In this document: in pieces, positions 14,015-17,064 of the stretch
Layout of the letters: every line of letters starts with the position of its first letter
Position numbering within the stretch: position 1 is the stretch's first letter
Assembly: GCA_018896645.1 (NCBI GenBank)
Contig: JAHIMF010000056.1
Span: forward strand, 1 to 34,859
From: Patescibacteria group bacterium
Lineage (GTDB): Bacteria; Patescibacteriota; Patescibacteriia; UBA2591; JABMQE01
DNA length: 34,859 nucleotides
Direction: 5' to 3'
Position numbers and translations under genes: made by a program
The notes under the pieces: generated by a model
The model's input: only the letters and a program-made list of their open reading frames with translations
Told to the model about the DNA's origin: nothing
Database searches by the model: none

Positions 14015-15031
14015 TCACCGACCACTGAATTCCAAATCACTCCACAACCAAGCACTATTCATCACTTCTTGACGCATTTTAAAAGTATTACCATGCCGCA
14101 AAAGACCCAAATATGATTGCACTGTTTCTGGCGCATTATGTTCTTTAAGCCGCTGCATCATTCGCTGTTTAGTTGTTGTCCGCAGTACTCGGTGGTGAGG
14201 AAAATGCACCCAGCCTAGAAAATCTATGCCCGAGGCCAGTGTCTGAAGTAGAATTTTTTGTGGATGTAATATCAGATACAATCGTTCCTCTAAAAATCTT
14301 TGCAAAAGAGAAATTTGTAGCCTTAGCCAGTCACGGTCTGACGAAAGAACAACAAAATCATCCGCATATCTGATGTAATATTTTACCTTGAGATGATGCT
14401 TCACAAACTGATCAAATTCATTTAGATAAACATTTGCAAAAAGTTGTGATGTAAGATTACCAAGCGGTAAGCCTTTGTATGGGGCAGTTGTAAAACTCTT
14501 AATGATTTTTTGTAAAAGACGCATGATATCGCGGTCAGGAATATATACCTGCAATATTTTTAAAAGTATTGCCTGGTCAATGCTGGCAAAAAACTTTTGA
14601 GCATCGCATTTTAATACCCAACAAGTTTTAGTATTATTTTGACTGACTTGATAAGCAAACTCACGAAATCGATTGATAGCTTTATGAGTACTCCTACCAA
14701 TCCGGCAAGAAAAAGAGTCAGCAATAAATGTTTTATCAAAAAATGGATAAAGTAAATGATAAACCGCATGATGAACTAAACGGTCGCGGACACTGGCTTT
14801 ATGAATATGTCTTGGTTTGGGGTCACAGATATTAAAAGCTTGATAGCTTCCATGTTCATAGCTATGATTAGCGAGCTCATGATGAAGTAATAAAACATTA
14901 TCCATCAAATCCAAAGAAAACTTCTGAACATCAGGTTTATTCCGCTTGCCCAAGATAAACTCCTGCCAAGCCAACAAAAGGTTCTCAACTGAAATAACGT
15001 CACAATATTTATAAGGTAGCTGAATTTTCAT
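14015..15031 (-). CDS. DGR reverse transcriptase
   Basis: A 338-residue reverse transcriptase. DGR-type motifs are visible: KCDAQKFFASID (first catalytic Asp block), LPLGNLTSQLFANVYLNEFD (the DGR-typical TSQ.FAN.YL block), the active-site YADD at residues 222-225 followed by FVVLSS, and FLGW near the C-terminal thumb. It would copy template-repeat RNA into cDNA with errors opposite adenines, which then replaces the variable repeat. I chose the ATG at 15031 because an AGAGG ribosome site precedes it; an extension to 15097 would run through a nine-G tract. It lies downstream of the template repeat on the same strand. Fully intact. Confidence 0.96.
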   Translation of the reverse strand: MKIQLPYKYCDVISVENLLLAWQEFILGKRNKPDVQKFSLDLMDNVLLLHHELANHSYEHGSYQAFNICDPKPRHIHKASVRDRLVHHAVYHLLYPFFDKTFIADSFSCRIGRSTHKAINRFREFAYQVSQNNTKTCWVLKCDAQKFFASIDQAILLKILQVYIPDRDIMRLLQKIIKSFTTAPYKGLPLGNLTSQLFANVYLNEFDQFVKHHLKVKYYIRYADDFVVLSSDRDWLRLQISLLQRFLEERLYLILHPQKILLQTLASGIDFLGWVHFPHHRVLRTTTKQRMMQRLKEHNAPETVQSYLGLLRHGNTFKMRQEVMNSAWLWSDLEFSGR

Positions 15032-15041
15032 AAATACCTCT

Positions 15042-15434
15042 ATGTCCCCCCCCCAACAAGTGGCGATTAATTTGCCAATTTTACAAAAAACGACCACTGC
15101 CTACAAATTATGGCATAGCTTTCTGCCACATATTCCACGATTATCTAGATATACGTTGGGTGCAAAAATTGACACGCTCTTTGCTGAAATTGTAGAACTT
15201 ATTTTACAAGCAGGATATTCAAGCAGGGACAGAAAGATAGAAACAGTTAACCGAGCTAGCATAAAATTTGACGCTTTAAAATTTTTTTTGCAGGTCGCCT
15301 GGGAGATGAAGGTGTTGGATAATAAAAAATATGCCCAATTATCTATGTTGTTAGCTGAAATCGGCAGAATGTTAGGAGGGTGGTTGAAGGATTTGAAAAA
15401 AGAAACTCCTCCGAACTTAATCAGAGGAGAATGA
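15042..15434 (+). CDS. avd: Avd, DGR accessory four-helix bundle protein
   Basis: A 130-residue protein matching the accessory variability determinant: LPILQKTTTAYKLWHSFLPH, RLSRYTLGAKIDTLFAEIVE, SIKFDALKFFLQVAWEMKV and the signature IGRMLGGWLK. In studied DGRs Avd is a pentameric basic barrel that binds the reverse transcriptase and template RNA. Here it is on the opposite strand from the reverse transcriptase, the template and the target, which is unusual. Nine C residues follow the start codon directly (15046-15054), and only 10 bp separate it from the divergent reverse-transcriptase start. No clear ribosome site precedes the ATG; an alternative GTG lies at 15060. Confidence 0.92.
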   Translation: MSPPQQVAINLPILQKTTTAYKLWHSFLPHIPRLSRYTLGAKIDTLFAEIVELILQAGYSSRDRKIETVNRASIKFDALKFFLQVAWEMKVLDNKKYAQLSMLLAEIGRMLGGWLKDLKKETPPNLIRGE

Positions 15435-15440
15435 AGAGAA

Positions 15441-15575
15441 TTGCGGACGGCGAGGAAACGGTAGTGCTCGTTCCAGCGGTTCCCATACCAGTTCAGGTTC
15501 AGGTTACGCTCGTGAACGTTCTCGTAGAAGCACGCAACGTAGCGATTGCCATTCGGGTGCGTCCAAACAGAGCCG
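15441..15575 (-). repeat. DGR template repeat (TR)
   Basis: These 135 bp match the variable repeat at 15922-16056 except at 19 positions, 16 of which are adenines of the TR coding (minus) strand. Read on that strand it encodes GSVWTHPNGNRYVACFYE and continues with many AAC codons (NLNLNW, GNRWNEHYRFLAVR), the adenine-rich codon choice typical of DGR templates. There is no gene start in frame, so it serves as template RNA. Confidence 0.96.
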
Positions 15576-15808
15576 CCATTTTGTACAAGGCATCATCTAA
15601 ACCACTGCTCCTTGAATGCTCTTAGAGCTGTATTTTATTTGGGGCCATAAATCCACCAATGCCTTGCACCAAGTATCTTCATTTTTAAAAGATTAAGAAA
15701 CACGCGCTAACCAACGACTTATCGTTGACTATTCTGGTAATTTCAAAATCCTAGAATTCGACCGCCTATAGCCGTAACCATAGACTGCATCGTCTACTAT
15801 CCAATTTT
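15441..15808 (-). ncRNA. Putative DGR template RNA with upstream promoter
   Basis: TR RNA must be read from the minus strand. An extended -10 (TGCTAAAAT on the minus strand, 15809-15817) with a weak -35 (TTTTTG) lies just inside the terminator at 15832-15869. The predicted RNA runs from about 15800 through TR and may continue into the antisense of avd and the reverse-transcriptase gene. The region 15600-15800 contains small hairpins (AACGA/TCGTT near 15711-15725, TAGAC/GTCTA near 15781-15796) and no other gene. Confidence 0.45.
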
Positions 15809-15831
15809 ATTTTAGCATAATTTATAAAAAC

Positions 15832-15869
15832 AAAAAAGCCCCATCCGTTATAAAAATGGGGCTGTTTTT
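15832..15869 (-). terminator. Terminator of the DGR target gene
   Basis: AGCCCCAT (15837-15844) and ATGGGGCT (15856-15863) form an 8-bp GC-rich stem. On the minus strand the stem is followed by six T residues, so it ends the target gene transcript. On the plus strand it is followed by GTTTTT, so it may work in both directions. In some DGRs a hairpin downstream of the variable repeat marks the homing site; this one may serve both roles. Confidence 0.85.
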
Positions 15870-15917
15870 CCAAGTGTCCAAGAGCCACCAAACCTCAAGT
15901 GACCAAGGGACCAAGCT

Positions 15918-16526
15918 CTACTTGCGGACGGCGAGGAAACGGTAGTGCCCGCGCCAGCGGCTCCCAAACCAGCGCAGGCGCAGGCGACGCTCGTCGACGC
16001 TCCCGTAGAAGCACGCAACGCAGCGATCGCCATCCGGGTCCGTCCAAACAGAGCCGAGTTCTATAATTGAGAACTCGCGCTGCTTATCTGGATACCTTGC
16101 CCCGAAGGCCAAAAGCTCTGGCAGGGTGGCCGAACGAAGGCCTCGGCGACCGAGCTCTTCGAGTACCTCATCCGTGCTTGCAATACGGTTGAGGTGAACC
16201 AAAACTGTCTCAACCTCTACCTGGCCGCATCCTTTGATTGGAAAATGGTCGGGGTTGATATCACTATTCTTCCAATCGTAATTGCCGGCCGTTATCATCT
16301 GCTCAAGGGAGAGAGCATAATCAACCGTGATGGGAAAAACTTCGCCAGCTTGCCTGACGATAATGTCCGCCATTCTGGCAATGATTTTCTTTCCTTGTGG
16401 AGTGGCTAAACGATGAATGTCTTCGTCCGTGCCACCGCGCTCACGGACAGCGGCATCAAGGGCTGAAAAGATGCTTGTCAGTAAATCAGCCCCCCTGACA
16501 ATTGCGGAAACTTCTTTCTTGGCCAT
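15918..16526 (-). CDS. DGR target (variable) protein
   Basis: A 202-residue protein. Residues 1-110 include a helical N-terminus (ADLLTSIFSALDAAVRERGG) and the segment LEQMITAGNYDWKNSDINPD. Residues about 137-155 (RGLRSATLPELLAFGARYP) precede a C-terminal C-type-lectin-like domain ending RFLAVRK. The last 45 residues are the variable repeat. Relative to the template, Asn became Asp, Arg, Ser or Lys, Tyr became Cys or Phe, and Glu became Gly. Such proteins are thought to bind variable ligands. I see no signal peptide or membrane helix, so it may act in the cytoplasm or be exported in an unknown way. A strong GGAGG ribosome site and promoter precede it. Its codon use is more GC-rich than its neighbours. 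Confidence 0.9.
   Translation of the reverse strand: MAKKEVSAIVRGADLLTSIFSALDAAVRERGGTDEDIHRLATPQGKKIIARMADIIVRQAGEVFPITVDYALSLEQMITAGNYDWKNSDINPDHFPIKGCGQVEVETVLVHLNRIASTDEVLEELGRRGLRSATLPELLAFGARYPDKQREFSIIELGSVWTDPDGDRCVACFYGSVDERRLRLRWFGSRWRGHYRFLAVRK
15922..16056 (-). repeat. DGR variable repeat (VR)
   Basis: This is the 135-bp partner of the template at 15441-15575. The last 29 coding-strand bases and the first 15 are identical to the template. Coding-strand changes at template adenines are mostly A to G or C. Three changes fall at non-adenine sites. Confidence 0.96.
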
Positions 16527-16618: not shown

Positions 16619-16647
16619 ATTGTATATCAAATTTTAAAAAATGTCAA
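16619..16647 (-). promoter_or_regulatory. Promoter of the DGR target gene
   Basis: On the minus strand TTGACA and TACAAT are spaced 17 nt. The predicted start lies near 16612, giving a leader of about 85 nt with a GGAGG ribosome site 7 nt before the ATG. Confidence 0.82.
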
Positions 16648-16760: not shown

Positions 16761-16837
16761 GCACCCGTAGCTCAACTGGATAGAGTGCCTGGCTTCGGAC
16801 CAGGAGGTTGCAGGTTCAAATCCTGCCGGGTGTACCA
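16761..16837 (+). tRNA. tRNA-Arg (TCG anticodon)
   Basis: A complete cloverleaf. Acceptor GCACCCG pairs with CGGGTGT (one G-T), followed by A and an encoded CCA. The D-arm contains TAGCTCAACTGGATAGAG. The anticodon stem CCTGG/CCAGG holds the loop CTTCGGA (anticodon TCG, reads CGA). The T-arm has GGTTCAAATCC. Confidence 0.96.
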
Positions 16838-16913
16838 CCGCGCATAGCTCAGCTGGTAGAGCAGTTGCCTCTTAAGCAAACGGTCGGGGGTTCAAATCCC
16901 TCTGCGCGGACCA
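16838..16913 (+). tRNA. tRNA-Lys (CTT anticodon)
   Basis: It starts on the base after the previous tRNA. Acceptor CCGCGCA pairs with TGCGCGG, followed by A and encoded CCA. The anticodon loop is CTCTTAA (anticodon CTT, reads AAG). The T-arm is GGGTTCAAATCCC. The outermost anticodon-stem pair looks mismatched (G-A). Confidence 0.95.
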
Positions 16914-16964: not shown

Positions 16965-17027
16965 TAGACAAGGTCAAGGGACCTTGTCTACTCCCCACGG
17001 GTGGATTGGGTCCCTTGACCCAATCCA
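16965..17027. repeat. Pair of palindromes with complementary loops
   Basis: A 26-nt hairpin at 16965-16990 has the stem TAGACAAGGTC and loop AAGG. A second at 17002-17027 has the stem TGGATTGGGTC and loop CCTT. The two loops are complementary, so they could kiss, or the two central GGTC...GACC boxes may be inverted copies of one core. It lies between the tRNA terminator and the end of the HU gene. Confidence 0.8.
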
Positions 17028-17064
17028 ATATTATAAAAAGCTCACCAACACCTATCCGCACCCT

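Follow-up and report, generated by a model that had tools for sequence, protein, structure and literature searches.

How a diversity-generating retroelement (DGR) makes its template RNA and brings it to its reverse transcriptase (RT) is a question raised by a cassette in the window, the 34,859-nt stretch of Patescibacteria DNA analysed here, in which the gene of the accessory protein Avd runs against all other parts. The first-pass annotation had described a complete DGR, and this was borne out: an RT, Avd, a 135-bp template repeat (TR) and a target gene with the variable repeat (VR) as its last 45 codons are present (Table 1), and the RT, avd and target reading frames are open and intact. The RT contains YADD, GLPLGNLTSQLFAN and GNLTSQ, i.e. 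the YxDD and SQ motifs of a DGR-type RT, and the closest solved structure for its family is the BPP-1 DGR RT, bRT (PDB 8ub7, E = 1.7e-65). Its likely start is the ATG at 15031 and not the GTG at 15097, use of which would give a longer ORF, because AGAGG lies ~6 nt upstream of the ATG. Avd scores 82.1 bits with NF033474 (curated cut-off 80) and also matches PF22296 (bAvd, 2.7e-18). NF033474 gave matches at 11 places in the genome (G000), including C46:10650–10928 on the minus strand, most of them weaker than the Avd of the cassette; the extra matches are probably stand-alone four-helix-bundle proteins without a neighbouring DGR. The RTs of L061, G048, G054, G058 and G095 carry an in-frame insertion at a single site between query residues ~183 and 186, which in L061 is about 30 aa long and repeat-like. 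Beyond the target gene, a tRNA pair (16761–16910) lies ahead of two near-perfect short palindromic hairpins at 16965–17030 (gacaaggtc-aag-ggaccttgtc region and ggattgggtc-cctt-gacccaatcc).

Table 1. Features of the DGR cassette, in order of position within the window.
Feature	Position	Strand	Basis or remark
DGR reverse transcriptase, 338 aa	14015–15031	−	RVT_1 (6e-22), YADD and TSQLFAN, RT tree
avd	15042–15434	+	RT, TR and target are on the other strand; last part overlaps the predicted TR RNA at its 3' end
3' hairpin CTCCTCTGATTAAGTTCGGAGGAG (15429–15406), then TTTCTTTTTT	15396–15429	−	Terminator-like; within the last avd codons, other strand
Long-range helix, 3' strand, CAATTCTCTTCATT	15430–15443	−	TR end plus flank
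Template repeat (TR)	15441–15575	−	Alignment to VR
Leader domain B, three-way junction	15576–15688	−	12-bp closing stem ends just before TR
Long-range helix, 5' strand	about 15684–15669	−	Inside leader domain B
Leader domain A, two hairpins with similar loops	15704–15788	−	Covariation
Extended −10 box TGC-TAAAAT (TGCTAAAAT)	15817–15809	−	Promoter-like start of TR RNA
Terminator-like hairpin after target	15837–15863	−	U-rich on both strands; between target mRNA and TR RNA
Tandem CTTnG array	15870–15917	−	Just 3' of VR; spacing 7–8 nt
Target protein, 202 aa	15918–16526	−	C-terminal C-type-lectin-like domain ending in VR; AF2 and Foldseek
Variable repeat (VR)	15922–16056	−	Alignment to TR
Target promoter, sigma-70-like, TTGACA-17-TACAAT	16619–16647	−	

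TR and VR align without gaps over 135 bp with 19 mismatches, mostly at adenines as expected for a DGR: the earlier count of 16 differences at TR adenines was reproduced (11 A>G, 4 A>C, 1 A>T), which, with 29 A in the 135-nt TR, gives a hypergeometric p-value of 2.1e-10. Of the remaining three differences (C>G, T>C and C>G), two lie side by side. The same pattern was seen across 120 related cassettes (1,997 A-site changes versus 78 others), supporting the past adenine-specific mutagenic homing that had been proposed. Adenine sites in the VRs of these 120 loci were replaced by G in 59%, T in 23% and C in 18% of the substitutions, and the VR of the window is more G/C-biased than those of its relatives (15 of 16 A-site changes to G or C). 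RT identity above 80% was found only among L044, L180 and L200, which look like different species; their VRs differ mostly at TR-adenine sites, which is a comparison between species and not population data. Further VRs, for which a search by matching TR had been suggested, were not found in the 1.33-Mb genome, nor was a second target homologue; the sole other DNA match in this genome is a 38-nt AT-rich sequence outside TR and VR. The single VR, the G/C bias of the substitutions and the three non-adenine differences would fit a decayed or silent DGR, in which old TR/VR differences persist in a cassette that is no longer active, but with RT, Avd, target and VR open, the catalytic motifs of the RT intact and the leader RNA model R1 (described below) matching over its full length at 112 bits, we regard such decay as quite unlikely. 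Judged by its sequence, the cassette is an intact, chromosomal DGR of Patescibacteria type, for which we infer DGR activity.

Although right about completeness, the first-pass annotation had overlooked that avd is antisense, that a conserved structured RNA surrounds TR and that cassettes with this layout make up a clade. The minus strand carries target, TR and RT, while avd, located between the latter two, is encoded on the plus strand, giving the order TR-(avd antisense)-RT and not the one-strand order avd-TR-RT of the BPP-1 type. Cassettes gathered from Patescibacteria genomes and named genome contigs yielded 159 non-redundant RT+avd pairs, and in 145 of these, nearly all from Patescibacteria, avd is antisense to and upstream of the RT. 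TR was located on the RT strand in 124 of the 145 loci, with a median distance of 15.5 bp between its 3' end and the avd stop codon, and was not found in the other 21. In a contrast set of 80 viral DGR loci, by comparison, avd is on the RT strand in 67, and the order is avd-TR-RT in 64/64 loci with TR in place. In the RT tree, the antisense-avd type forms one side of a single branch (support 100/100), versus a mean of 23.6 changes after shuffling, with a bootstrap that is not fully settled. By RT sequence, the antisense-avd arrangement defines one RT clade, the Patescibacteria type. An antisense-avd cassette is also present in a MAG labelled Planctomycetota (L138); misbinning is likely, because its RT falls inside the Patescibacteria clade. 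Six Patescibacteria DGRs (L065, L070, L081, L082, L106 and L116) belong to other RT clades and have avd downstream or TR opposite to the RT; the R1 leader is absent from these loci.

VR and TR are a nearly fixed distance apart in the relatives, mostly 300–390 nt, and the intervening DNA is conserved. Covariation of the leader 5' of TR was assessed in two alignments of 49 relatives, with counts inflated by the kinship of the sequences. The 21 pairs of domain B were 96.0% paired, compared with 75.2% after shuffling and 30–53% when the partners were slid, with a covariation score of 0.744 versus 0.315 shuffled, and the 19 pairs of domain A were 96.2% paired versus 68.8% shuffled. Extended −10 boxes (TGnTATAAT-like) were most frequent between −150 and −130 nt relative to the ACTTGG anchor, as seen for 35 of the 49 relatives. 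A covariance model of the leader, R1, matched the window over its full length with 112.3 bits and is single-copy in that genome (R1 E-values are rough, coming from a short calibration). A search of 100 loci, overlapping the training set in the window and L115 plus a few other copies of training genomes, returned 62 matches, and in 52/52 loci with a known TR the match lies on the TR strand and ends −18 to +23 nt from the first base of TR. Within the phylum, 67 of 380 genomes contained R1; where an Avd was among the matches listed, it lay on the opposite strand 122–211 nt downstream in 67/67 cases, while 17 further R1 matches had no Avd among the matches listed. The 80 viral loci gave four R1 matches, all in antisense-avd cassettes, and none in canonical viral DGR loci; half of the viral loci with antisense avd (4/8) had no match, and in more divergent clade members a strong R1 match or the 3' hairpin described below is missing.

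The leader RNA belongs to no Rfam family at threshold: no match near TR was obtained at the gathering threshold in 33 relatives or at E = 1 in 10 more. The RT-16 RNA (RF03019) gave a full-length match at 15578–15705 on the minus strand, directly 5' of TR, and both share AUAAAAUACAGC and a stem at that place; scoring 26.3 bits where the gathering score is 50, the match is sub-threshold and suggestive. RT-16 was rejected as the named identity of the leader, as it is below threshold and was found in none of 287 genomes of the phylum. RT-16-like patterns in viral contigs were attributed to chance, because no RT lies near any of the 54 places.

On the other side of TR, the hairpin directly following it had a mean z of −3.8 over the 124 loci, with 77% below −2 versus about 5% elsewhere, and the canonical viral set showed no such signal 3' of TR. 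In 106 of the 124 loci the hairpin with its U-rich tail overlaps the end of the avd coding region; in the window, the U-tract corresponds to Lys-Lys-Glu codons of avd on the opposite strand (15396–15404). A conserved G often interrupts the U-tract (TTTTGTTTT), and in a terminator scan of the single window the hairpin was barely above chance, so it may be a protein-binding element and not a terminator. The start of the RT lies 365 nt beyond it. A conserved spacer (Sp) further 3' of TR was considered and rejected, as no fold signal was detected beyond about 50 nt in local 50-nt windows over the 124 loci; in place of the structured 3' spacer of the BPP-1 type there is only the short hairpin directly 3' of TR. 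This bears on the possibility of an ordinary BPP-1-like DGR with avd merely inverted, a ~140-nt 3' Sp on the antisense avd strand and a 5' leader that is only regulatory. Its RT and Avd are indeed related to the BPP-1 proteins, and with TR preceding the RT in the same orientation, a transcript could run from TR into the RT; yet that absence of fold signal on the antisense-avd strand, the strong covariation of the 5' leader and the hairpin with a U-tract directly after TR all speak against it, and we consider this organization unlikely.

The two sides of TR are also connected by base pairing between AAAAUGAAGnnACUUGG in the leader and GCAAnnnCUUCAUUU, the end of TR with its flank. Cognate duplexes averaged −8.83 kcal/mol versus −7.46 kcal/mol for permuted ones (sd 0.26; 0/5000), and a scan of both sides gave a signal solely at this position (z −4.7 and −6.0). 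Compensated changes were found in L136, L125, L171, L142 and L056, and an unconstrained fold of the window RNA includes the same long-range helix. A conserved 5' structure situated between target and RT could instead regulate the target or RT mRNA in cis and not belong to a mutagenic template RNA, in keeping with the many leaders that are riboregulators. We find this highly improbable, given that R1 ends at the first base of TR in every locus with a known TR, that the leader pairs with the TR 3' end and that a conserved terminator-like hairpin parts the leader from the target.

This last hairpin matches a peak of conserved folding that the relatives show roughly 300 nt ahead of TR on its 5' side, and in the window it follows VR at a distance of about 60 nt, after the CTTnG array. 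VR ends one base ahead of the target stop codon, and the C-terminus that it encodes models as a C-type-lectin-like domain: the AF2 model of the target has a pLDDT of 85, and its best Foldseek matches are C-type lectins (probability up to 0.97, best E 0.036). CTTnG units follow VR in 112 loci at 3.12 per 60 nt, versus 0.43 in the background and 0.67 after canonical viral VRs. Perfect inverted repeats of at least 6 bp were found just after VR in 26/103 loci, versus 6/103 after shuffling. Mini-hairpins within the array were considered and rejected, the flanks being without clear complementarity. By analogy with BPP-1, which requires a DNA hairpin just after VR (PMC3240598), the CTTnG array is probably a target element taking the role of that hairpin.

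We consider it very probable that the cassette is a chromosomal Patescibacteria-type DGR in which TR is part of its own ~400-nt structured RNA, RT and Avd engage this RNA via its 5' domain and the cDNA replaces VR. The genes, the mutational footprint and the conserved RNA with its pairing can be read directly from the sequences, and from these we infer production of the RNA. TR would be transcribed from its own promoter on the minus strand, from about 15802 to 15396, as an RNA consisting of two hairpins, a three-way junction, TR, a long-range helix clamping the TR ends and a terminator hairpin. RT and Avd would bind it via the 5' domain, which would take over the recruiting job of the BPP-1 3' spacer. 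Reverse transcription would begin at the 3' edge of TR and halt at the 12-bp stem that ends at the first base of TR, adenines would be miscopied, and the cDNA would substitute for the VR of the lectin-like target. A candidate primer is the near-invariant leader A of ACUUGG (~15674), which is predicted to lie in an internal loop and to be brought opposite the TR 3' end by the long-range helix, analogous to the internal spacer adenine that serves as priming site in BPP-1 (PMC12875486); this assignment is speculative, and we put it forward with low confidence. Either the avd mRNA or the TR RNA could be regulated by their antisense overlap.

The cassette resembles the BPP-1 DGR (8ub7 series) in its RT, Avd, TR/VR pair, adenine mutagenesis and C-type-lectin-like variable domain at the target C-terminus. 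BPP-1 itself has avd, TR, Sp and brt on one strand, a structured spacer 3' of TR and a DNA hairpin after VR (PMC12875486, PMC3240598), whereas in the window avd is antisense, the structured domain precedes TR on the 5' side and has a promoter-like box to itself, a short 3' hairpin lies in the antisense avd end, a long-range helix joins leader and 3' side, and a CTTnG array follows VR. Being a DGR, the cassette is of a kind that is already known. Paul et al. 2017 and Wu et al. 2018 reportedly provide catalogues of CPR DGRs, the latter also with cassette architectures; an inverted avd may already be listed in these CPR/DPANN surveys, and to our knowledge neither reports a conserved TR leader RNA. 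Our literature search, which did not extend to Paul 2017, Wu 2018, Weinberg 2017 and Handa 2025, retrieved no report of an avd in antisense orientation or of a leader 5' of TR. DGRs are known to occur abundantly in CPR bacteria (PMC8144416), and by its traits (cellular, Patescibacteria, targets without recognised domains) the lineage described here is probably the same as DGR clade 2 of Roux et al. 2021 (PMC8144416); the searched text of that paper mentions none of avd, orientation, RNA structure or the term non-coding.

What is known of how DGRs work comes in large part from a single phage system, and a large Patescibacteria-type clade with another template RNA and another gene order tells which parts of the mechanism are essential. 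R1 provides a detector for antisense-avd cassettes, and the TR RNA a compact, separate template RNA. Because editing in the BPP-1 system rose 35-fold when the TR RNA was expressed under a strong promoter of its own (PMC12875486), a natural design with a separate TR RNA would be directly useful for targeted hypermutation. For patescibacterial DGRs in general, we lean, by a little, towards a separately transcribed, guide-like TR RNA with an RT/Avd-recruiting domain at its 5' side, a leader adenosine set opposite the TR 3' end by a helix that clamps TR, and an end within antisense avd. If true, such an autonomous guide-like TR RNA would represent a second scheme by which DGR mutagenesis is organised and primed.
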